Shown one piece after another: positions 1 through 13,036 of a DNA stretch of 23,595 nt. The stretch comes from a virus. The translations under genes and the position numbers were made by a program. The stretch covers positions 1-23,595 of IMG/VR virus record IMGVR_UViG_3300030102_002189; one strand, 5' to 3'. Position 1 is the first letter of the stretch. The number at the start of each line of letters is the position of its first letter. The notes under the pieces are model-generated. The model ran no database searches, was not told the origin of the DNA, and worked only from the letters and a program-made list of their open reading frames with translations.

Positions 1-3000
1 AAACCACTGTTTTTACCGTCCAACCTGTTTCTACCAGTTTGCATACGGGTGATAATATTATCTAAAGCAGAAACGTAACTTTGACCAAACTGCGCTCTTA
101 GTTTATTCTTGTTTTTTTCATTAAAAATAAAGTCGACGTTTTGGTTCCACTCTTCAAGATATTTTTTTCTGCTGTTCTTTTTCAAAGAGTCAATTATATC
201 ACCAATAATACCATTACCAGTCCAGTTTTCACTAGGTTCAACGTGACCGTGAAGATCTGTAATCTTCATTATCTCAATGGCTGCTTCTCTGGCTAAACCG
301 TTTTTAACCACGAAAGATTTAGCTTGTTTAATATCAGCTTCACTTACACCTGGTATATCATATCCTTTTCTAGACCATATATAAACTCTTATGGCGTTTT
401 CAATAGACATACCTGGAAAAGCCTCTTGCTTAAAATTCTTAAACAATGGTTTAAATGTGGTCTTGACATCTCTGTACTGCCTGATCATCCTAACTCTTTC
501 AGCTGAATAGTTGTTTACGCCTTCGTAATATGGCTCGTACAAGTATTCTTCAAAAAAAGATCTGTGTTTTTGAGATTGCTCTTTTCCTTTACCTACTAAA
601 TAATTTTCTATTAGACCTTTAAAATCGTCATGAGAAGGTGGCACGAAGAAAATTGCTTCGTTTTTACCCCTGCCAATATGTTGAGATGCGACTTTAGAGT
701 ATTCTGTATCAGCATCAACACCTGTAACTTCTTCTAGTATATCATTAAACTGCTTGTCGATATCAGCCGCTAGATCGTTTAGTCTTTGTTGTTCTTCTAT
801 TTCAGCTAGCTTAATAGCATCTTCGCCGACAGTACCTGATTGTTGAATCTCGTCAAGTATGTTTTGCAAATTATCTTCTAGCTCTTTTATTTTCTTTTTC
901 TTTCTAATAGCATCACCGTCTTCATCTAGCTGTTTAGAAAACTTATCATTGTTACCCATTAAATTTTGGATATTCTGAGCTGTTTTACCGTTGTAATCTA
1001 AGGATACTAAAGCTGAGTGATCTATTAAACCTAAAACAGATTGATCCGCTGTTTGCTCTAGTGAAGGTATGCTGTCATCAAAAACAATATCTCCATTAGC
1101 ATCGATGTTCATAGCGTCGTGCAGCGCGTTGTTTTTTAACACTTCAAACATCTTACTCGTGCCTTCGGAGCCAACAGTAACTCTAGATATTCTGGATAAG
1201 AAGTTTGGAGCAATATCATTTCTAAAATGAGGCATGCCTTTGCCTTGTTTACGTACAATTTTGTCAATATACTTTTTGGTAGCTTGAACAACCATAAGGT
1301 CACCGATCACAAGCATGTCTTCAGCCTTTTTTCTAGGGTTTACAGCTATGTTGGCTAGATAACCAGACAAATAAGGTATAGGTATAGAGAACATGTTCTG
1401 CATGTTGTTTGCTTTAATGCCAACCATCCTTAAACCTACAGGAGCAGCGTATTTAATCAATGCTTTTTTAGATCCTTGATCAGTAAAAACTTTATCAAAT
1501 ATCAAACCTACTTCATCTCTAGTTATATGTCCATTGGCATACAAACGCTTAATCTTCATTAAACCTTCAGCTATGTCATATTGTAAGTCAGCCGCTTTGA
1601 AGTCCTCATTTAACAACGAAGTTTCTTCGTTCATTAACCAAGGCATAATTTTTCTGCTAGCTCTCGGTGAGTTAAATACTTTTTCAAGAACTTGTCTTGT
1701 TAACGAAGGTGGTATAGACTTGGTATCTTGGCCCAAAACAGCTCTGTGCCCCTGGTTTAACACGTTGTTTTCAGCGATAGTAAATAGTCTATCAGATAAA
1801 GCGTTTATAAACTCAGCTTCAGCTTGTTCGTGTACTTGCATTTTAACAATATCTATTCTTCTAGCTATCGCAGCAAAGTCGGAGGCTAGTTGATTAGATA
1901 TAACCCTAGCGCTATTTTCGTTCAACCAAGGGTAGTTTGATCTAAATGCGTTCACTAACGTGTTCGCCATGGCTATTTTAAGCTGACCAGACGTGTTATC
2001 TCTTTTAAAAGGTACCATTAGTCGGTACGGAGCAATAGTGTCTCTAAAAGCCTTTAAAATCGGCTCTGGATTAGCCATTATAAGCTCTGACATGCGCTCT
2101 CCAGCCATACCAGCATCTAAAGCAGCCTTGCTGAACTTAACTGTAGGATCTCTATCAAGAATAAATGCTACTCTACCTATGATTTGGTTTTCTTCTACTA
2201 CGTCTGCATTGTTTTCTACAATACGCTCGTACATGTTAATCTCTCTACCTTCAATAGGCATGCCGTCAAGATCGTATAGTTGTTGGTTTGGATTCTGCAT
2301 TGTTTCCAACGTAGCATCCATACCTAGCTCTATAGATACGGCTTCTGCTAAAACTCTTTTGTGCTCATGAGGCATGTTTCTGCTTCTACCTATTCTTGTG
2401 GGATCTAAGTAATCAGCCCACTCTTTATCTGTAGGAAATTTTCTTACGATCTTTTTAACACCAGAGTAAGGATCTTTAATACCAAGTTTTACGGACTCTT
2501 CTGTAGAGTATCTCATCACCTTGCCATTAGCATCTTTTTGAAATTCATACAAAACACCATTTAAAGCAGGGAACTTTCTTAGTGTATTTAAACTTATTTC
2601 TCTTTCTATCCAGCTTTTATTTGTTTTAGCCCATAACTGAAAATCTTTAGATCTTGTAGGGAATTTTTCAAGTACAGTTTTGTATATCTGCGTTTTGTAA
2701 GCCTCGTTGAGGAAAGTTCTAAACAAGCTAGGTTTCCATTTTTTAGTAGATACAAGATCTGGAGACAAGCTAAGCGTTCTAGTAACAATGGCTCTAACTA
2801 TGTTCATCTCTTTAGGATCTAAACCTAGCTTTCTTCTTATTACACTAAACTCAGGTGCCGCGTCTTTTTCTTTTAAACGTTGATCAATACTAGCTATCAT
2901 AGATTCTTCTTCGGAAATAGCTGGACCACCGCCTTTTAAGTCATCTATGTTTTTATCAAATGTTTCGCTAATATATTTGTCTTTAATGTTGCTAGCCCTT

Positions 3001-6000
3001 AATGCAAAGTATTTGTTGATGTACGCTGCTAGCGGAACACCTGTTTCTGGTTTATAAGTCATAACTATACCAACAAGACCAGTAGTGTCGTACAAGGCTT
3101 CGTCTTCTATTTCTAACCTCATGTTTTCCCATCCTGGAAGAGTATCCCAGTTACCACGTGTTACAATTTTTCTAAACATGGGTCTGTATAATTCAGCTAT
3201 ATCATAAGCTGATTCAGGACCTTTCTCATCGTAAAGCGCTTGTACTTTATTTGACATTTCTTTTTGCGCGGGTGAAGGATCGGGTTTAGAAAATAAGTCC
3301 TGCGCAGATTCCATATCCTGTGCAGCTTTGTAACCCACTGAGTTTTTATCAATGTCAACTAATTTACCTCTACCTCCGTATTGAGCAAATTTTCTTTGAG
3401 CAGCGGTTGACTTACGTTTGATAACAGAGTTATTATAATCTCTTACAAAGTTAAAAACGTCTCTACTATCGTTAAACTGTATCTCTTTTAAACCTATAGA
3501 CTGTAATAATCTTCTAATAAAATCACCTATTGACTCAAACAAGCTTGCGTTATATGTAATCTCACCTTTTAATAAACCATCAGACAAAAGCGTCATGATT
3601 TCTTCTACATTTTTTGGATCGATTTGAACACTTGTAGACTCGTTTATCATTTGCATAAGATCAACACCATCTTTAACAGACTTTGTAGCAAGTTCTTGTC
3701 CCGTGTACTTTTTACCCTTATAAGTAAAGGTTTGATAAGCACCTATTCTGTATCTAAGATTATCTAAACCTTTTATTTTACCTTTTGACTCAAGCTCAAT
3801 TAAGTGGCTATTTAAAGCAGACATCACATTAGAAAGTGACTCTTGATTTACTACTTGTTTGCCGTCTTTTACTGATCTAAAGGTATTAGCTAGTATAGCG
3901 TGTAACACTTCGTGACTACCAGATGTAGCTTGATTTTTAGCTATAGATGATTCAGCGTTGATAATTATTTTACCACCACTCGTAAAAACACCACCTGTAG
4001 ATCTATATTCTCTAGCTTTATTTTCAACTAGTTCTTGCGTAGGGTTTTTAATACCTTGTGATTCTAGGTATTTTTTAGCAAATTCCTCGTTTGTCTCAGC
4101 AACAACAACATTTGTACCTACGATATCTAACTCTGCAAAAGCAGCTAACGTTGAATTTAAGTTCTCGTTAAAGTCCACGTTGTTAGCTAGATCAGTTACT
4201 TTTTGACCGTAGTTAAAAGCAAGAGTGTTGTATTCTTTAAATAAACTATTAGAATTGTACTTAGTGTTTATAATACGTTTTTGCTCTTTAGCTTTATCTT
4301 CTGTTATGACACCTTCTTTTAATTCTGTATCTACAACACTGAGCTCCTCTCTTTTCATCTTAGAGAGCTCTTTGTATTTTTCACCTTTTTCAGAGTTTCT
4401 AAATCTCATCAACTTGTCTTCAGCATCTGCTTTAGCAAACTGAGATTCCATCAAGCTTGATTTTCTAGCATCGCTCATGCCTCTATCAAAGGTCTGGCTA
4501 GACTGCATGAAGTCTTCCAATTGCTGCTTTTTCTTGCTATACACCTCTTCAGTAATCTCGCCGCTTTTTTTCTGATTATCTAAAACAGACAAGTTGTAAG
4601 CGTGAAACTCTCTCATGCCCTTTATATCGAGTTTACCATGAGCAAGAGCGTAAGCATTGGAAACCTCTCTAGCTGTAGTTGAAGCTATGTTACCAGAAAA
4701 AGGCAACAAAAATCCCATAAGAAAACCAGCACCAACACCCTGAACGTAACCTTCGTAATCAAAATTGTTTACACTTATATCACTAACGAGTTGCTGCGTA
4801 GCTTCTGTAATAGCTTCATCAAAACCACTAGATGCGTATGTTCTACCGTTTCTTAACTGTTGCCTTAAAAAGTTTTTGTATTGACCTTTAACAAGTGAAG
4901 CAGCGGTTTCTTTAATCTGTTTTCTAGTAATACTAGATATCTTACCTATGCTAGATGAAGTAGCTCTAAACACAGAGGTAGCACCCATGTATTCAGCTGC
5001 GCCTGATGCTAAACCTACACGAGAAGCACTTTCAAACATACTGTCATCAACGTCGTCTTCTACGGTTTTAATTAATTGCTCTATTGTAGGCTGATCAGTA
5101 TCGTACTTTAACTTAGCTTCTTTTTCGACTTGGCGCATGTAATTATCACCCATCATCTGAGCAGCCGGTATAGTACCAAAAGAAACAAGTGCTGATACCA
5201 TTTGCGGTATTTGTTCTGATGCAATTCCTCTAATATTCTCGTAAGACGTGCCAGCTTTAAAAACATCTCTAATATCATGCTGACCAAACGCTGATTCTAC
5301 GCCTTGTCTCTCAAATATTGTCTGAAGCAAAAACGCTTGTTCTTCTTGTCCGTTTTTAATAATGTCTTTAGCCTTATCCTTAGCTTCCTTCCAAGTTCCT
5401 AGTTGTGTATAACCAGATGCCTGCGGAGCCATACCTCCTTCAGAAGGAACAATAAAAGCACCGTCTTTGTTAAAGTAACCTACAGTGTTTTCATCCCAAT
5501 TTTCGCGTTCAGCTCTTTCTAAATTTCTCTCGTGTTGTCTTTCTACTTTTAAGTACGGTGAAGTAGCCAAGCCTCCCATTTTAATAGAAGTACCTATGCC
5601 ATGCGTGCCTTTAAAAGCACCTTTGTAAACATTTGGAAACCTGTTGTATAGGGCTTCCATGGTGTAAATAGGAAGTATACTACCTTCTTTTTTACCTCTT
5701 TCTATGTGATCTGTAATAGTAAAATCCGCGATATAATCGCTGTTTTCTGCATTGTGTACGCCTTGTAACGCTTTTTTATAAGCATCTATTTCCTTTGAAA
5801 TTTTACGATCACTACCTATAATACCATTGATAAGCTTTGAGTAACCTTTGTTAAGCTTATCATAGTCTTCAGAAGTAAAATCTTTTGGATCAACACCTTC
5901 GTATTGAGACATCAGGTTTTCCATACCTGATTTTATGTAGTCTTTTTTTTCGTCTAGCCTAGACTCTATTAGAGCCTGTATAGTTTCATCGCTTTTTATA

Positions 6001-6506
6001 GCGTTGCTTAGAGTATTCGCGTTGAAGTCTAAAATGTTATTCTCATCGGAATAATCAAGGACTGGTCCACTAGGTGTTTTTACTGTTTTACTAGATGCCT
6101 TGTTGCCTTCAAACTGTCTTTTAACATTACCCGCTATGTAGTTTTGTCTCTCTAGAGCTTTATCTGACATTTCTTTGGCTTCACGTATGTCATCTTGTAC
6201 CTGAAGGCCATCTTTAGGAACACCCATGTAAGACTCTTGTTCTTGAACAATAGGCCCTAATGAAGATGGATCAAATGTCTTTATATCTTGTGAAGCCGAA
6301 GAATACGCTTCCGAAAACGAAGCCATATCTTCTTGAAGCGCCTTGGGCGGTTCCACTGGGCTTGGTGTGACTTCGCCCTGTGCCACGCCCTCTTGCTTTG
6401 CTTCTAATCCGAACTCTTTAATGTATTCTTCTACTGACATACCGTTTTGTTCAGCAGCTTGTTGAACCTCTTGCTCAGAGTATTCGTGTCCTCCGTACTC
6501 GTACAT
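1..6506 (-). CDS. Giant virion protein with zincin (HEVLH) motif; probable ejected polyvalent protein, 3' end outside window
   Basis: Reading the minus strand from the ATG at 6506 gives one uninterrupted frame to base 1: 2168 codons with no stop, so the protein is longer still. The ATG is the first after the in-frame stop at 6525-6527 and lies 11 bases after the preceding gene. Residues 1-35 are a short acidic helical segment (SVEEYIKEFGLE). Residues 39-57 form a Pro/Val/Gly linker. Residues 436-452 and 590-605 are hydrophobic, the latter GVGAGFLMGFLLPFSG. Residues 865-869 read HEVLH, the HExxH zinc-metallopeptidase signature, within SGSHEVLHAIL; Glu968/969 (VEEIMTLLSD) could be the third zinc ligand. 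Residues 2140-2161 (FGQSYVSALDNI...TGRNR) look like a conserved block. Size, place after two Gln/Ala-rich proteins and mosaic character fit an ejected internal virion protein (T7 gp16-like role) or a phage 'large polyvalent protein'. Functions of the other regions are unknown to me. Confidence 0.9.
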   Translation of the reverse strand, partial: MYEYGGHEYSEQEVQQAAEQNGMSVEEYIKEFGLEAKQEGVAQGEVTPSPVEPPKALQEDMASFSEAYSSASQDIKTFDPSSLGPIVQEQESYMGVPKDGLQVQDDIREAKEMSDKALERQNYIAGNVKRQFEGNKASSKTVKTPSGPVLDYSDENNILDFNANTLSNAIKSDETIQALIESRLDEKKDYIKSGMENLMSQYEGVDPKDFTSEDYDKLNKGYSKLINGIIGSDRKISKEIDAYKKALQGVHNAENSDYIADFTITDHIERGKKEGSILPIYTMEALYNRFPNVYKGAFKGTHGIGTSIKMGGLATSPYLKVERQHERNLERAERENWDENTVGYFNKDGAFIVPSEGGMAPQASGYTQLGTWKEAKDKAKDIIKNGQEEQAFLLQTIFERQGVESAFGQHDIRDVFKAGTSYENIRGIASEQIPQMVSALVSFGTIPAAQMMGDNYMRQVEKEAKLKYDTDQPTIEQLIKTVEDDVDDSMFESASRVGLASGAAEYMGATSVFRATSSSIGKISSITRKQIKETAASLVKGQYKNFLRQQLRNGRTYASSGFDEAITEATQQLVSDISVNNFDYEGYVQGVGAGFLMGFLLPFSGNIASTTAREVSNAYALAHGKLDIKGMREFHAYNLSVLDNQKKSGEITEEVYSKKKQQLEDFMQSSQTFDRGMSDARKSSLMESQFAKADAEDKLMRFRNSEKGEKYKELSKMKREELSVVDTELKEGVITEDKAKEQKRIINTKYNSNSLFKEYNTLAFNYGQKVTDLANNVDFNENLNSTLAAFAELDIVGTNVVVAETNEEFAKKYLESQGIKNPTQELVENKAREYRSTGGVFTSGGKIIINAESSIAKNQATSGSHEVLHAILANTFRSVKDGKQVVNQESLSNVMSALNSHLIELESKGKIKGLDNLRYRIGAYQTFTYKGKKYTGQELATKSVKDGVDLMQMINESTSVQIDPKNVEEIMTLLSDGLLKGEITYNASLFESIGDFIRRLLQSIGLKEIQFNDSRDVFNFVRDYNNSVIKRKSTAAQRKFAQYGGRGKLVDIDKNSVGYKAAQDMESAQDLFSKPDPSPAQKEMSNKVQALYDEKGPESAYDIAELYRPMFRKIVTRGNWDTLPGWENMRLEIEDEALYDTTGLVGIVMTYKPETGVPLAAYINKYFALRASNIKDKYISETFDKNIDDLKGGGPAISEEESMIASIDQRLKEKDAAPEFSVIRRKLGLDPKEMNIVRAIVTRTLSLSPDLVSTKKWKPSLFRTFLNEAYKTQIYKTVLEKFPTRSKDFQLWAKTNKSWIEREISLNTLRKFPALNGVLYEFQKDANGKVMRYSTEESVKLGIKDPYSGVKKIVRKFPTDKEWADYLDPTRIGRSRNMPHEHKRVLAEAVSIELGMDATLETMQNPNQQLYDLDGMPIEGREINMYERIVENNADVVEENQIIGRVAFILDRDPTVKFSKAALDAGMAGERMSELIMANPEPILKAFRDTIAPYRLMVPFKRDNTSGQLKIAMANTLVNAFRSNYPWLNENSARVISNQLASDFAAIARRIDIVKMQVHEQAEAEFINALSDRLFTIAENNVLNQGHRAVLGQDTKSIPPSLTRQVLEKVFNSPRASRKIMPWLMNEETSLLNEDFKAADLQYDIAEGLMKIKRLYANGHITRDEVGLIFDKVFTDQGSKKALIKYAAPVGLRMVGIKANNMQNMFSIPIPYLSGYLANIAVNPRKKAEDMLVIGDLMVVQATKKYIDKIVRKQGKGMPHFRNDIAPNFLSRISRVTVGSEGTSKMFEVLKNNALHDAMNIDANGDIVFDDSIPSLEQTADQSVLGLIDHSALVSLDYNGKTAQNIQNLMGNNDKFSKQLDEDGDAIRKKKKIKELEDNLQNILDEIQQSGTVGEDAIKLAEIEEQQRLNDLAADIDKQFNDILEEVTGVDADTEYSKVASQHIGRGKNEAIFFVPPSHDDFKGLIENYLVGKGKEQSQKHRSFFEEYLYEPYYEGVNNYSAERVRMIRQYRDVKTTFKPLFKNFKQEAFPGMSIENAIRVYIWSRKGYDIPGVSEADIKQAKSFVVKNGLAREAAIEIMKITDLHGHVEPSENWTGNGIIGDIIDSLKKNSRKKYLEEWNQNVDFIFNEKNKNKLRAQFGQSYVSALDNIITRMQTGRNRLDGKNSG
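3594..3914 (-). other. Zinc-metallopeptidase (zincin) core inside the giant protein
   Basis: The HEVLH motif is encoded at 3900-3914, where the two His and the Glu would bind zinc and activate water. It follows a beta-like stretch (GGKIIINAES) and a Ser/Gly turn, as in many zincins where the active helix follows an edge strand. About 100 residues later VEEIMTLLSD, encoded around 3594-3605, supplies a Glu in a helix, a common third-ligand position in gluzincin-like enzymes. The motif is directly visible; the third ligand and activity are inference. HExxH can occur by chance in a 2168-residue protein, but the hydrophobic helix context (VLHAIL) argues against that. Confidence 0.6.
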
Positions 6507-6517
6507 TTCAGATATTT

Positions 6518-7966
6518 TTAATCGTTAACAGCACCCATAAACGAAAGCTCGCCTTCATCAGGTGTTGGTCCTGTTACGTTTGGTAAAACAGGTTTATTAC
6601 TAGTTTCTAGCTGAATAATAGCAGCGTCTGTCGTAGCGTCTGCTCCAAACTTACTTTCAATAATTGCCGATTGCAATGATTTGCTAATTGTAGGATCAAA
6701 AGGATCAACAACAAAATAATCTTTATCGGTAATTATAATCATTTCACCAGGAGCTGCATTTAGATTTCTTTGATCAGATTTAGTATATCCATATTCAGCC
6801 ATTAGAGATCTAGCGTCTTGACCATCACGGCCAACGAAACCAGCAGCTACAACATTTTGGTTAGCATACTTTGAACCTATTAAAGGCTTAGTATCACCAC
6901 TCAAAACTAATTTCATATAGTTATTACTAACCTCAACCCTGTCTTGAGCATCGATACCTCTTCGCTGTTGTTCTGTTAGTCTTTGAGAAGTTGGGGTTGT
7001 AATACCTAACTCTTGCTTTTTATTTGCTAGGTTTATAGATCTTTGTAAATTACGAGCGTCAGTTCTATTCTCTTTAGCTAACAAAGCGTTGTAACCAGAC
7101 TGGGCAGACTGTCTCATAACGTTTACATACTGATCGATGACCACTTCTTTTAACTCTTGTGGATTATATTGACTTGGATCAATACCTAGACCACCTGGAA
7201 CGATATAATCGTCTGTGGCTAGAGAAATAGCAGCCTGTGGGCCGCCCTGGTCTAACATTGTTCTAAGCTGCATCCTAACAATTTGCTCTCTACCTTTATC
7301 TAAAGGTGCACCGCTATCGTACAACGTACTGTGTAAACCTAAAACCTGACTAGCGACACCATAGTCTTTGTAGTGCATTTTAGGTAGATTATCCATTGTC
7401 ATACCTTCACCTAACAATAGTCTACCGTTGCTACGGTCTATGTCTAGATCGATCTCATCTGTGGTTAACCTAGTCATAAAGTCTTTAGCTTCAGCTGACG
7501 TACCGTTTGATATGCTACCAATCTCAAAGTCCTCTAGTGTCTGTATTTTTTTATCGTAAAGCTTAGTTAAGTCGTTGTTTAGGTTTTGGTACTGCTGCAT
7601 GATAGAGTTCATGCCTTGAATAGCTTCAGCGTATTGTGGGCTTCTTGGGCCTGCGTTAGCGGCTAATTGAGCAAGTCTAAAATACTCATCTTTAGTATCT
7701 GTTAAAAACGGTGTGATTATCGGCTGTAGTTGCTCTGGCACTTTAGCAATATCAACGTTGGCAGGCATGTTATCCATAAAAGCTGCCATGCGCTGGTCGG
7801 CTTGTAGAGACATAGCTTGTCTTTGCTTTCTTAATTCGTCTGATCTATCACCAGCGAAAACATTTTGTCCAACATCCTGGACATAACCCTGCGCGGCAAA
7901 GCGAGCACCTCTTATAAGATTAGCATCTCCACCCATTGGTGGTATGTATGATTGTTGTTTAGCCAT
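6518..7966 (-). CDS. Putative internal virion / ejection protein, 482 aa
   Basis: I do not recognise a family. The protein starts MAKQQSYIPPMGGDANLIRG, has a Gln/Ala/Met-rich helical N-terminal third (residues 1-160, e.g. DELRKQRQAMSLQADQRMAA and MNSIMQQYQNLNNDLTKLYDKK), and a more mixed C-terminal half with beta-like stretches (EMIIITDKDYFVVDPFDP). No signal peptide or membrane segment is evident. It sits between the small Gln/Ala-rich protein (8-base gap) and the giant protein (11-base gap), the slot held by gp15 in the T7 gp14-gp15-gp16 ejection set, though gp15 is longer (about 750 residues). The leader ATATAATAATAATC has no Shine-Dalgarno sequence. Assignment as an ejected internal protein rests on position and composition only; a tail-associated structural protein is the alternative. 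Confidence 0.55.
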   Translation of the reverse strand: MAKQQSYIPPMGGDANLIRGARFAAQGYVQDVGQNVFAGDRSDELRKQRQAMSLQADQRMAAFMDNMPANVDIAKVPEQLQPIITPFLTDTKDEYFRLAQLAANAGPRSPQYAEAIQGMNSIMQQYQNLNNDLTKLYDKKIQTLEDFEIGSISNGTSAEAKDFMTRLTTDEIDLDIDRSNGRLLLGEGMTMDNLPKMHYKDYGVASQVLGLHSTLYDSGAPLDKGREQIVRMQLRTMLDQGGPQAAISLATDDYIVPGGLGIDPSQYNPQELKEVVIDQYVNVMRQSAQSGYNALLAKENRTDARNLQRSINLANKKQELGITTPTSQRLTEQQRRGIDAQDRVEVSNNYMKLVLSGDTKPLIGSKYANQNVVAAGFVGRDGQDARSLMAEYGYTKSDQRNLNAAPGEMIIITDKDYFVVDPFDPTISKSLQSAIIESKFGADATTDAAIIQLETSNKPVLPNVTGPTPDEGELSFMGAVND

Positions 7967-7974
7967 GATTATTA

Positions 7975-8661
7975 TTATATTGTTCCACCGCCTGTTTTAG
8001 GAAGACTACCACCTAATAAGCCAATAATGCCTGTGCCTAAACCGAAGTCTTGACCGGTAGCCGCATTTACGTTTTGCATATATCCTAAACCTGCACCGGC
8101 TATATTTCCAAAAGCATTAAACGATTGGTTTATAGCGGCCTCTCTCTCAGCTCTAGCTTGGCCAAACTCCTGTTGCGCCATACCAAGTTCTGTAGCAAAC
8201 TGGTTACGCTTAAGACCTCTAGAGTACATTTCGCCTTGACGCTCCATGTTTTGTATGTTCATAGCGCCTTGAGCGGCTAATGCTTGGTTTCTAGCTTCCT
8301 GTTGACCAATACTTGCGCTGGCTTGTATAGCGTTTTGCGATTGTTGGTTCGCCATTGCTTGAGCAAGACCTGCGATACCTGAACTACCAGCAGCTTGACC
8401 CATGGTGTTCATTGTGTTAGCTAAAGCTTGATTTTGTTGATCTGCTATAAATTGAGATTGTTGCTGGTTAACAGTAAGATCTTCATAAGCATTTTCCATG
8501 TTAAGCATTGGATTACTTAAATCTTGGTTCATATATTGCGCTCTAGCTCTATTGAAATCAGCTTCAGCATTTTGAAACCTTTCTCTTCTAGCTGGACCGG
8601 TGTATATGTTGTGCGCAAGATTTAAACCCGCTGCTGCTAATAAATAAGCTGGTGCTGCCAT
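7975..8661 (-). CDS. Small Gln/Ala-rich internal virion protein (T7 gp14-like role), 228 aa
   Basis: The protein opens with a short apolar stretch (MAAPAYLLAAAGLNLAHN), continues as a long Gln/Ala/Asn-rich helical region (residues 60-185, e.g. NQQQSQFIADQQNQALANTM and AMANQQSQNAIQASASIGQQ), and ends in a Gly-rich apolar segment (LGTGIIGLLGG). Length, Ala/Gln bias and apolar ends match T7 internal core protein gp14 (about 196 residues), which forms a channel in the host outer membrane during DNA ejection. It follows the tail stabilisation gene by 34 bases and precedes the other two ejection candidates, as gp14 does in T7. I see no sequence motif that proves homology; the role is inferred from composition, size and order. 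Start chosen at the only sensible ATG, with AT-rich leader. Confidence 0.6.
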   Translation of the reverse strand: MAAPAYLLAAAGLNLAHNIYTGPARRERFQNAEADFNRARAQYMNQDLSNPMLNMENAYEDLTVNQQQSQFIADQQNQALANTMNTMGQAAGSSGIAGLAQAMANQQSQNAIQASASIGQQEARNQALAAQGAMNIQNMERQGEMYSRGLKRNQFATELGMAQQEFGQARAEREAAINQSFNAFGNIAGAGLGYMQNVNAATGQDFGLGTGIIGLLGGSLPKTGGGTI

Positions 8662-8695: not shown

Positions 8696-11600
8696 TCAAC
8701 TACTGATAAATATTTCAGAGTTTACTGCAAATAGTTCTTTATTTGTTCCTCCTGTGTTAGTCATCTTTACAGATGCGTAGTAACCAATAATACCCGATGT
8801 GTTTACCTGTGTATTTTTAGCGAAGAATATAAAATCTCCAGCGGCAGGCACCGCGGTAGTATCTTTACTTACCTGTATTTCTTTACCGGTTATACCTATA
8901 CATGTTCCTATAAGATAAACTTTATCGCTATCGCTAGCGTCTACAAAGTAAACTTTGTCATCACCTTCTTCAGAGCCGTCTACCCAGCCTTGTAAAGAAA
9001 CATTTATATCATAAGTGAATCTAATAGTCCAAATAGTTTGATCACCGTTAAGCGTGGCTGTAAGCGCGTTATCAATACCTTGAACATTAAATTCACTGGT
9101 GTCTAATGTACCACTTTGTGACGAACTATCCCATGTGCTGTCTAAACCTCTTATATAGTTGTAGTATATACCTTCTTTGTTTTTCCAAGTAGCAACCTCG
9201 CCATCTTGCTGATCAGTATTTACAGTGGCAGTCCAGCTATCATCACCTTCGTACGAAAGTGTTTTAAAGTTTTTAATTCTTGAAGGCTGGTCGTTGTGTA
9301 ACAAAGTCACAGTTGTGTCATACTGAGTACCGTAGAAGTTGGATCTAGTAGTATTGTCATGTATATATATCTCACCGTTTTTAAACGTGTAGTATTCATT
9401 ATTCAACGATATACCAAACTCAGGCTCGTAAGATAGTCTAGTTGGCCAACCATCTACGTTTTCTTTAAACGATAATACTTCTCCATTTAACCTTATATTG
9501 TAAGCGCCAGCATCTTCATCGTAAGACCCATATATCTGATTTATGTTGTGTGCTTTGTATGCGTCCAGAATATAATCACTCATACCCTTGCTAGATATTT
9601 CAGTGATACCATCTCTAGATAATCTGATTACAGAGCCTCTTGCTTTGTCTGTAAAGTAAGCTCTGAAACCGTACGACGCAAACGATTCGGGGTTTTTGGA
9701 TATACCGTATTCACCGATGTACGGCGTAGCTTGCCCAAGCACACGGTTAGTAGAAGTGAGGTTGGCGTTTCCATCAGCGTTGAATAATGCGTCTTTATTA
9801 GCTAGTATTCTAAATATTTTGTCCTCAAGCAATACGATAAGGTCTGTATCCCTAGCATGCATTTTCTGTATAGTACCGTATATAGGGTTGAGGTCTTTAG
9901 TTATTTTTTCTGCAGCAATAAACTGATTTAATTGATTAAAACCAGTAGTGCTGTTAAATATACCACTGTATATCATGCCAGCTCCTTTTCGATCTTGAGA
10001 ATAAGGTTCGTCTAGTGTAGAAGACGCTTTTACACCCTTACCTATAGTAGGTGCGTTAAAGTCATCTCTAATTCTATCTGATTCAACACCATTACCAAAA
10101 CTAAAGCAGTTTGTGTATGTCAATGTCTGCTCTGTGGCGATGTTAGCTATGGCTATAGCATCACTAGCCTCGTAGTATATATCTAAATCAGCTGACTCTC
10201 TTGGTTCAGTTTCCCAAACAGCTGGATTAAAAGAGCTTAAAACAACGGAATTTTCATCAAATTCAGCAAGTAGTAGTCTTCTTCTTTTTACAATTTTAAC
10301 TTTAGTTATATCAAATGATGCAAAATCAAAATCTATATCACCTCTAAACTGCTCTTTGAGTGTAACGTTCCAGTAAAAACCAGTTTCATCATCAGTGTTA
10401 TTGACGTCTGGATTTTGTCTGTCGTAGCTACCTTTTACTACAGAATCTACTTCGTATATATCACTGTACCTATTAGAAGTGGCATCAAAAAACTGAACTA
10501 TACCACCATCGATATTGTCGTTGAACGCTTTGGCTGAAGTTTCTGTATCGAGTGTGCCATCAAAAGGCGCAAAGTAAAAACCAAATAACTTACTACCCGT
10601 AGTAGGTTTACCATGTGCAGATACATTAGGGTCTGCGTTAGAGTTCTCAGCCCAACCAAAGCTGTCTGAAACCACTAGATTATCATCAGGGTTGTCTACA
10701 ACGTCATTTGCTACCGCAAGCTCAGTGTTAGCTATTAGTTCATAATCAGCAGGATCATTAGTAAAGTTGTATATAATGTTTTCTTCAAATACAACATCCC
10801 TGTTTATTTTAACAAAAAATCTTCCTTGAAACTCAGGTAGATTAAGCGTTATCTTCTCATGAACCTCACAGGTAAAAGTACCAGAGGTAATGCTGTCAAT
10901 GAAGTTGTCGACAGATTTTATTTTTTCTTTTAGCGTAACAGTATAAGTGTTACTGCTAGCAGTACTATAACCACCTGTTTCAACCTCATAAAAATCACTT
11001 ACATCACTACCGTTTTTAAATCTTAGATATATAGATTCTTTAAATGATTGAAAAAATCTTTCATTACTAGTTTGGCTAGGACCAATAAAAGTAAAGGTTT
11101 TTAGACCAGATGCTATCTTATTAGTTGCACTGCCTCTTGATATCGAAGATATGGCTATATTTTGTCTTCTTGTTTTTACAAAATCAGGTACTTCGTTTTT
11201 AATATCTAAAACTTTATATCTAGCGTTGCCTTCTACAGATTCGTCAGAGTTGTGTTTTTTCTTTATTTCAATGTATTGGCCTTCCTCGATCTTGTTTCTT
11301 TCAGCGCTAGGTATACTTAACCACACATTACCGTCTTCTGACGCGTAGTATCTATCTAAAACAAAGTTGTGGTATGGTGTAGAGGTTTCTTTTACAAAGT
11401 ATTTAAAATGAGTAGCCCAGCTAGGTGCCGCGTTATTACTGTTGTCAAAATCAACCTTTAACTTATTTACCTTGTGTGATACGTTTTTATCAACTCTAAT
11501 AGACGCTGTATCGTTTGTAAATACAGGTGTTTCTCTACCGTTTTCATCAAGATAAACAATACCTACCTGGTATGTTCTCAAAGACTTTAACGAGGCTTCT

Positions 11601-13036
11601 GGTGTTTTTAAAGACGTAATATCACTAGAGTCTATAGCTAAAGATATTTTAGTCTCAGTATCTACATCGTAGTTTTGAACGTAATTGCCGTATACAAGCC
11701 TATTGCCAATGAGCTCTTGAGCTTTAGCTTTTATAGGTACGTTATCGTAGGGCCTTAATATCTGGTTAGATTGTATAACATGGTATATAAGCTCTGATGT
11801 TATAGAATAACTTGTTTCAGTCGCTGCGATCTCATCTACCTTGTATATATTGTTAGAAGAAGAGTCTTTATACAAAATCTCTATTTCATCTACGTCTTTT
11901 GGCGGTGTTTCAAAACCATTGATAGTCAACTTTCTCAAGTTGTTCACCATACCTACGTTGTGAGATTCTAAAGACACATACTCAAAATCACCCGGAACAA
12001 AAACAGGTTTTGTAAATGGTGAAAAAGCCGAGTACTCGTTGTTTTTATATTTCCATCTATACGCAAACCTAGGAAACTCAAACTCAAACATTGGTTTCTC
12101 TTCTTCAAGTACACACGTCCAGACGTAAGGGAAAGCTCTCAAGTTGGAAGATATAGACTGTATTGTACCTACCACAGTAGTGTTATTAACACTAGTTACT
12201 TTTATTCTTACCTGGTACTCGTTGTAGTTGTTATTGTCGTTTAGTTCACTGGCGTTTAGTATAACTATATCGTTAGCCAACCAGTTAGTATTAGCTGAAG
12301 TTGTAAAAGTTACAGAAGAACCAACTTCTAAAGGAACGTCTTCGGTTGTAATAGCGGGATCTGTGAAATCTTTCTCAACAGTTACAGTGTTAAGACCAGA
12401 ACCTACACCAGTTCTAGTTGAGGATAAAGCTGTAAAGGTAGGCGCTGTTTTGGGTTTCTGCTTTATAACGGTTATATCACTGGCTAAAAAAGATCTACCA
12501 TACACGCTAGTTGTTACACTAGATAAAGTTTTTCCACTGCCAATAGTTGTAGTTGTAGCAGTTTTAAAAGTAGATACATTTATTATTCTAGGTTCGTTTC
12601 TGTCATCAGTCCAAGCTAGTAGACCTTCAAAAACGTTAACACCAGTTATCAAGTTGTCTTTACTAAAGTTTAGTATACTTCCAGAATCTACTAAAATAGG
12701 TGCTATAAAAGTTGTTGACTCATCATACTCTAGTATAGCGTCACAAGAATCTGATGAAATGAACCAATAAATCTTGTTGTTCAAGGTATCTCTAGCTACA
12801 CCTATACATGTAGGATTAGTAAGACCAAAATTAGCCTGCCATAAATCGCCAGACGCATTACTTTTCTTATTTTTCTTTGTATTACCTAGTACACTTTCGA
12901 TAGCACCAACATCAGAACCTTCAGAGTCGCTCACTTGTATGTTCTGAGCATCTCTGTATTGACCATTAGGTACTAGTCTCTCATCGAGGTCCTTGTTCAT
13001 TTTACCCGATGTGAAAAGACGCTTTAATTCTGGCAT
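8696..13036 (-). CDS. Tail stabilisation / tail tubular B-like nozzle protein, 1446 aa
   Basis: This very large beta-rich protein begins with the characteristic block FTSGKMNKDLDERLVPNGQY (residues 9-28), followed by YRDAQNIQV and EGSDVGAIESVLGN (to residue 52). From memory that block recurs in large structural proteins of marine podoviruses and in crAss-like 'stabilisation' proteins. A second conserved-looking block near residues 1068-1095 reads LLEDKIFRILANKDALFNAD, then GQATPYIGEYGISKNPESFA. Alternating Thr/Ser/Val strands suggest beta-propeller or jelly-roll domains, as in the T7 gp12 nozzle. It starts three bases after the adaptor gene, and the tail-tube adaptors lie just upstream, fitting a short-tail nozzle. 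Its length is about 1.8 times T7 gp12 and close to crAss-like stabilisation proteins (about 1400). No enzyme motif was seen. A head-neck whisker or fibre protein is less likely. Confidence 0.7.
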   Translation of the reverse strand: MPELKRLFTSGKMNKDLDERLVPNGQYRDAQNIQVSDSEGSDVGAIESVLGNTKKNKKSNASGDLWQANFGLTNPTCIGVARDTLNNKIYWFISSDSCDAILEYDESTTFIAPILVDSGSILNFSKDNLITGVNVFEGLLAWTDDRNEPRIINVSTFKTATTTTIGSGKTLSSVTTSVYGRSFLASDITVIKQKPKTAPTFTALSSTRTGVGSGLNTVTVEKDFTDPAITTEDVPLEVGSSVTFTTSANTNWLANDIVILNASELNDNNNYNEYQVRIKVTSVNNTTVVGTIQSISSNLRAFPYVWTCVLEEEKPMFEFEFPRFAYRWKYKNNEYSAFSPFTKPVFVPGDFEYVSLESHNVGMVNNLRKLTINGFETPPKDVDEIEILYKDSSSNNIYKVDEIAATETSYSITSELIYHVIQSNQILRPYDNVPIKAKAQELIGNRLVYGNYVQNYDVDTETKISLAIDSSDITSLKTPEASLKSLRTYQVGIVYLDENGRETPVFTNDTASIRVDKNVSHKVNKLKVDFDNSNNAAPSWATHFKYFVKETSTPYHNFVLDRYYASEDGNVWLSIPSAERNKIEEGQYIEIKKKHNSDESVEGNARYKVLDIKNEVPDFVKTRRQNIAISSISRGSATNKIASGLKTFTFIGPSQTSNERFFQSFKESIYLRFKNGSDVSDFYEVETGGYSTASSNTYTVTLKEKIKSVDNFIDSITSGTFTCEVHEKITLNLPEFQGRFFVKINRDVVFEENIIYNFTNDPADYELIANTELAVANDVVDNPDDNLVVSDSFGWAENSNADPNVSAHGKPTTGSKLFGFYFAPFDGTLDTETSAKAFNDNIDGGIVQFFDATSNRYSDIYEVDSVVKGSYDRQNPDVNNTDDETGFYWNVTLKEQFRGDIDFDFASFDITKVKIVKRRRLLLAEFDENSVVLSSFNPAVWETEPRESADLDIYYEASDAIAIANIATEQTLTYTNCFSFGNGVESDRIRDDFNAPTIGKGVKASSTLDEPYSQDRKGAGMIYSGIFNSTTGFNQLNQFIAAEKITKDLNPIYGTIQKMHARDTDLIVLLEDKIFRILANKDALFNADGNANLTSTNRVLGQATPYIGEYGISKNPESFASYGFRAYFTDKARGSVIRLSRDGITEISSKGMSDYILDAYKAHNINQIYGSYDEDAGAYNIRLNGEVLSFKENVDGWPTRLSYEPEFGISLNNEYYTFKNGEIYIHDNTTRSNFYGTQYDTTVTLLHNDQPSRIKNFKTLSYEGDDSWTATVNTDQQDGEVATWKNKEGIYYNYIRGLDSTWDSSSQSGTLDTSEFNVQGIDNALTATLNGDQTIWTIRFTYDINVSLQGWVDGSEEGDDKVYFVDASDSDKVYLIGTCIGITGKEIQVSKDTTAVPAAGDFIFFAKNTQVNTSGIIGYYASVKMTNTGGTNKELFAVNSEIFISS

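Follow-up and report, generated by a model that had tools for sequence, protein, structure and literature searches.

Zincin-like MPTases are the commonest domain of the polyvalent proteins of phages and plasmids according to Iyer et al. (2017; PMC5512222), who distinguished 12 clades of them and proposed that they process their own polypeptide, whether ahead of packaging or once delivered, or else attack host proteins, and who also described the HExxHxxD variant of the motif for the phage-type representatives. The MPTase-bearing DdrB of phage P1 is reported to undergo proteolytic processing, and the vRNAP of phage N4, which has a similar domain, enters the virion uncut and requires the domain-bearing region for its encapsidation (PMC5512222). 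With regard to gene partners, gp73 and gp72 of the N4-like phage DEV act as ejection proteins in concert with the giant gp71 (PMC10925440), and in crAss001, a phage with a muzzle-type tail, the large cargo proteins C1 and C2 as well as RNAP subunits are packed in the capsid for ejection (PMC10172136).

The DNA studied here, referred to as the window, is a stretch of 23,595 nucleotides beginning at base 1 of a 26,825-base record of a marine podovirus that shows kinship to Flavobacteriia phages. Its giant protein is, as seen from the conserved site, the zincin fold, the gene order and the homology to annotated virion proteins, most probably a virion cargo protein of the polyvalent type that includes a zincin module, a class known from Iyer et al. 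(2017). In common with the polyvalent MPTases (PMC5512222), its zincin has a core of three strands, an N-terminal helix, the HExxH helix and a Glu helix, located in a giant multidomain protein, adjoining virion genes and combined with unrelated enzymes in relatives; unlike them, the window protein has no match to the Pfam family PF18818 and no recognised ArdC-N, MuF or RNAP domain. The resemblance to N4 (Schitoviridae) concerns both the gene order—portal-...-gp52-gp51-gp50, with the giant gp50 being the last—and the HELVH domain of gp50, where a strand precedes the motif, an amphipathic helix follows it and a Glu is found further on in NEFMAW. The window giant differs from gp50 in lacking a recognised RNAP domain, the whole protein having no RNAP match in Pfam, PHROG or NCBIfam; the hhalign comparison with the gp50 domain gave a probability of 13-22% over 18-20 columns around the HExxH helix only. 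The likeness to crAss001—the muzzle-type tail and the large packaged cargo—is one by description, and the papers on that phage consulted here, PMC10172136 among them, make no mention of a peptidase.

The giant protein and its virion gene neighbourhood

The features of the locus are as follows:

3..6506, minus strand: giant ORF for a multidomain, virion cargo-type protein bearing the zincin (2168 codons from ATG)
9..782, minus strand: strongly conserved C-terminal domain covering residues 1909-2166, with a mean column identity of 48% in alignment A2
3417..4115, minus strand: zincin metallopeptidase domain, residues ~798-1030 (from alignments, the AlphaFold2 model and structural neighbours)
3600..3602, minus strand: Glu969, which begins a downstream helix and is presumed to be the third zinc ligand (identical in 68/68 domains)
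3900..3914, minus strand: HEVLH, residues 865-869, with two presumed zinc-ligand His and the presumed catalytic Glu866
4587..5459, minus strand: residues 350-640, part of the conserved N-terminal half common to annotated virion giants of cultured phages
6518..7966, minus strand: 482-aa protein directly upstream, second of the ejection-type triad (position conserved)
7975..8661, minus strand: 228-aa Ala/Gln-rich protein, first of the ejection-type triad (homologues in 73/91 loci)
8696..13036, minus strand: muzzle-like tail protein (PF25729 crAss_MUZ_C, 1.1e-11; phrog_14478, virion structural, 3.5e-156)

The giant frame contains no stop before the window edge and, since base 1 of the window is also base 1 of the virus record, the C-terminus of the protein is missing. 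The gene is situated among virion genes, directly after those for the muzzle and the ejection-type proteins; further upstream, past the muzzle, follow the genes for a pair of virion structural proteins, for a protein of 254 aa, for the presumed major head protein, for an acidic protein and then for the portal and TerL. The order of the triad, [~230 aa]-[~480 aa]-[giant], is conserved and ends the structural module: homologues of the 228-aa protein, which shows 29% to Gundel gp72 (annotated as virion structural), lie two genes before the giant in 72 of the 73 loci possessing them, and those of the 482-aa protein, detectable in 29 of 91 loci, are immediately upstream of the giant in 28. The remaining structural genes of the window gave no recognisable peptidase. 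It may be added that a short run of N is present at the window end, within a small ORF upstream of TerL (L082 ~3596-3607; record ~23595-23606), and that beyond the window the same record encodes a likely tail spike or fibre (L082:5554-6825; record ~25553-26824) with a C-terminal part resembling, by eye, the chaperone of endosialidase, SDERLKEDIKPL.

With regard to kinship, the muzzle-like protein, judged by its sequence matches, shows a relationship to crAss-like phages. Membership in the order Crassvirales is, nevertheless, not claimed, because the nearest named portals are those of an unclassified podovirus (52%), Maribacter phage Panino (45%) and Elemovirus (42%), as well as of Cellulophaga and Tenacibaculum phages, Pervagoviridae and Pachyviridae being included among the named portal relatives.

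The N-terminal half of the giant has profile matches to phi38:1 gp101 (1e-38), Gundel gp74 (7e-46), Elemovirus (elemoF) gp18 (4e-20) and phi13:2 gp127 (3e-13), all four being proteins of cultured flavobacterial phages and 'structural' by the annotation of their records. The first three are, moreover, placed after two smaller structural genes, as is the window giant; unlike it, none of the three possesses the C-terminal domain of the window's clade. The homology together with the gene order supports the term 'ejection-type protein' used in a preliminary description of this DNA. The most hydrophobic segment by hydropathy, in this half, covers residues 586-612. The C-terminal domain (PPSAEDFkGLlYnFlGKGKqG...), found in 120 giant frames, has no match in Pfam or PHROG. 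A HAD-type motif (DFDDT...FVDD) precedes this domain in 89 of 113 giants, as counted by motif I, and in one relative (L128:8732-9931, giant residues ~2600-3000) the HAD-type region is interrupted by a P-loop kinase that matches AAA_33 (7e-12), Zeta_toxin (6e-9) and a polynucleotide kinase PHROG (1.7e-8), so that a single polypeptide combines the zincin, the HAD motif and the kinase, domains of unrelated biochemical type. Both the HAD motif and the P-loop kinase are absent from the window protein, the zincin being its only recognised domain. The position of the zincin is constant, between the shared N-terminal half and the variable stretch that in relatives bears the HAD motif and, in some of them, a P-loop kinase. 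As a separate observation, the helical stretch at 2862-3254 on the minus strand (residues 1085-1215), with the conserved 'YkPesGvPLaAYINk..', looks by eye like sigma-70 region 2; the identification of residues 1130-1180 with that region was dropped, Sigma70_r2 being matched by one of 20 members at E 0.1.

Conservation and fold of the zincin domain

The preliminary description had pointed to HEVLH at residues 865-869 of a long uninterrupted frame, with a candidate third-ligand Glu about 100 residues later, and both were found as described, the frame of 2168 codons being open at the edge. Glu969 and its neighbour, which is also a Glu (E968), are located 100 and 99 residues past H869, respectively. 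Of the span 3594-3914 assigned to the feature, the upper bound is that of the HEVLH codons, and the lower one lies two codons past E969. HEVLH is the sole HExxH of the giant ORF, one such motif being expected in a shuffled protein of equal length and composition with P = 0.02; by itself, the motif is weak evidence.

Single-sequence searches of IMG/VR and GenBank phages with either the domain or the whole protein revealed no relative, and the broad alignments offered no stretch sufficiently conserved for scanning; relatives were reached via TerL first and the C-terminal domain next. The TerL search led to 80 related contigs, with the giant present in 16 of 32 and HExxH in 15 of those 16; one homologue (G001) is 56% identical to the window giant along residues 1-2164. 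The unbiased set consists of 80 loci fetched by the C-terminal domain alone, i.e. without selection on HExxH. Among its 78 giant frames longer than 1200 residues, 73 contain the motif, against 1.3 expected from composition, and 71 contain it exactly once; in three of the five lacking it, the 5' end is truncated. A chance origin of HExxH is therefore excluded by its conservation across giants picked independently of the motif.

The 68 aligned zincin domains share 16-51%, mostly only 16-30%, identity with the window domain. G839, H865, E866, H869, E969 and F1020 are invariant in all of them; it should be pointed out that these domains were chosen for HExxH, so that the independent invariants are G839, E969 and F1020. 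The distance between the positions of H869 and E969 varies from 43 to 99 residues. In the full-length profile alignment, H-E-H-E is kept in 106 of 114 giants, and six of the remaining eight have an HExxH at some other point of the frame, apparently through a slip in the alignment. Two otherwise long giants have QExxH (L120; QEAGH, codon CAA) and HDxxH (L189; HDGLH); from their sequences, both sites look catalytically damaged, representing either natural inactive variants or read errors. The dN/dS ratio of the zincin domain in seven pairs is 0.07-0.32. Ten giants (L204, L207, L113, L193, L190, L143, L199, L147, L146 and L205) exhibit HExxHxxD, not the window type. In the 3859-aa giant of an unclassified podovirus (L106; MW202828), HEFGH occurs twice, at residues 1615 and 2500, and neither site matches the window zincin profile.

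As far as the cultured phages are concerned, Elemovirus gp18 has a homologous zincin too (HEIFH, iE 1.4e-12), and HExxH is absent from phi38:1 gp101, phi13:2 gp127 and the Panino giant. The zincin is thus an accessory part of a more widely shared virion giant, and one that has become fixed in the clade of the window.

The domain was recognised by none of Pfam, PHROG and NCBIfam; the weak matches, i.e. Zincin_1, M78, SprT, DUF3267, M4, M1 and Tox-MPTase4, are scattered and differ by member, the best one (4e-5) belonging to one member. The MPTase-PolyVal family PF18818 of Pfam was matched by none of eight related virus records at E <= 1 and does not occur among the matches listed for the members of alignments A1 or A6, and a PDB sequence search with the 68-sequence profile gave no match, M34 included, at E <= 10.

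The AlphaFold2 model of the window domain, based on 68 sequences, reached a pLDDT of 91.5 and a pTM of 0.86. Foldseek with this domain alone returned unrelated helical matches only, its core being probably hidden by the long N-terminal helix and an insert of 100 residues, and for this reason a compact homologue (L176) was modelled as well (50 sequences, pLDDT 91.1, pTM 0.87); against the PDB, Foldseek gave a best E of 0.1 for the two together, weak evidence if taken alone. In each model, strands are followed by the HExxH helix, and a helix further on holds the conserved Glu. In the compact homologue, the strands cover positions 18-23, 47-51 and 57-62, with HExxH at 73-77 in the helix 70-84; the three-strand sheet and the HExxH helix are similarly arranged in the window model, where E969 is on the helix 225-241 (residues 964-980).

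In the VIA comparison, 14 of the 19 rows for the window domain are zincin matches (Z 2.2-6.0), namely lethal factor, neprilysins and a relative, lugdulysin and M32 carboxypeptidase, and for the compact homologue every one of the 38 rows is a protein with a zincin or zincin-like fold; the neighbours are labelled here as zincin-type on the established knowledge of their families. The closest solved fold is that of anthrax lethal factor (M34), with Z 5.7-6.0 for the window model; the identity, however, is 9-15%, and this is a likeness of fold alone that implies no common function. The compact homologue superimposes on the zinc-bound lethal factor catalytic domain (4pkq) with Z 6.2 over 139 residues at an rmsd of 4.0 A, on the non-catalytic N-terminal domain of lethal factor with Z up to 7.0, and on Spartan SprT and PprI with Z 4.9 and 4.8, respectively. 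Its further neighbours are certhrax, the N-terminal domain of edema factor, CapP, YbeY and MATCAP, and also collagenases, ACE, M32 and minigluzincins. The Z values of 5-7 are modest; the models nevertheless support a zincin fold for the giant's domain.

Taken from motif and model, the zincin would be of the gluzincin type. The middle of the giant is almost certainly a true zincin domain with an intact site, and it would be expected to bind zinc and to be catalytically active. The zincin identity given in the preliminary description has thus been upheld both by the homologues, in which HExxH and the Glu are retained, and by the predicted fold.

Possible roles of the zincin

Packaging and delivery of the giant are quite probable. 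Together with the two smaller proteins encoded before it, it would be carried inside the capsid and ejected either before the DNA or along with it. The zincin may then cut its own giant polypeptide, either during maturation or after delivery, and the cut would separate the N-terminal half, serving as a channel or for envelope passage, from downstream modules acting in the cytoplasm. That such cutting in cis is the main role of the zincin is given an even chance here. It is favoured, albeit unproven, because of the fixed place of the zincin between the N-terminal half and the variable enzyme-bearing stretch, and it is supported by the processing of P1 DdrB, also an MPTase-bearing protein (PMC5512222); by analogy, the N4 vRNAP, which stays uncut with a comparable domain (PMC5512222), would argue against it. 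The activity is, moreover, dispensable for such giants, since phi38:1, phi13:2 and Panino lack HExxH and the sites of L120 and L189 look damaged. Self-processing seems at least as likely as the delivered effector or the processing of virion proteins that the preliminary description had put forward.

An injected effector, cleaving host proteins of transcription, defence or the envelope within minutes of the onset of infection, is possible, if rather unlikely. It is among the roles listed by Iyer et al. (2017; PMC5512222) and would be in line with the accessory distribution of the module, near-universal in one clade and absent from related giants; site variants, such as HExxHxxD in ten giants, fit a changing target, and a cell-delivered protease ranks, by its catalytic domain, among the best structural neighbours, as a likeness of fold only. 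The strict conservation and the fixed position in the giant, however, fit a housekeeping role equally well. A maturation protease for other virion proteins, i.e. scaffold, head or ejection partners in the procapsid, could be thought of because the zincin is encoded in the structural module, where no second peptidase was recognised; such a role is improbable, given that the cultured phi38:1, phi13:2 and Panino, with related portal and structural genes, have no HExxH in the giant and that the site is damaged in two clade members. Still less probable is a zincin fold retained for packaging or structure, without peptidase activity: the region of the uncut N4 vRNAP required for encapsidation (PMC5512222) offers a precedent and the damaged sites of L120 and L189 do exist, but the four site residues, including the catalytic Glu that a structural role does not need, are invariant in 68/68 diverged domains.

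Zincin-bearing giants in the phage lineage

The class of such proteins is already known; neither the presence of the zincin throughout this phage lineage nor its domain family is named in the libraries searched. An unannotated 'structural protein' thus becomes an enzyme that can be put to the test, and the phage lineage to which it belongs is abundant, though seen for the most part in metagenomes. That this large, marine, mostly uncultured podovirus lineage delivers a zinc protease against host proteins at entry, along with the kinase and HAD phosphatase modules of the relatives, is a doubtful picture at present. Cultured models exist both with the homologous domain—Elemovirus gp18, the elemo phage being in culture with Flavobacterium sp. 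BAL314—and without HExxH in a related giant—phi38:1 gp101—and the question of whether the zincins of phage giants target the giant itself or the host is therefore directly testable.
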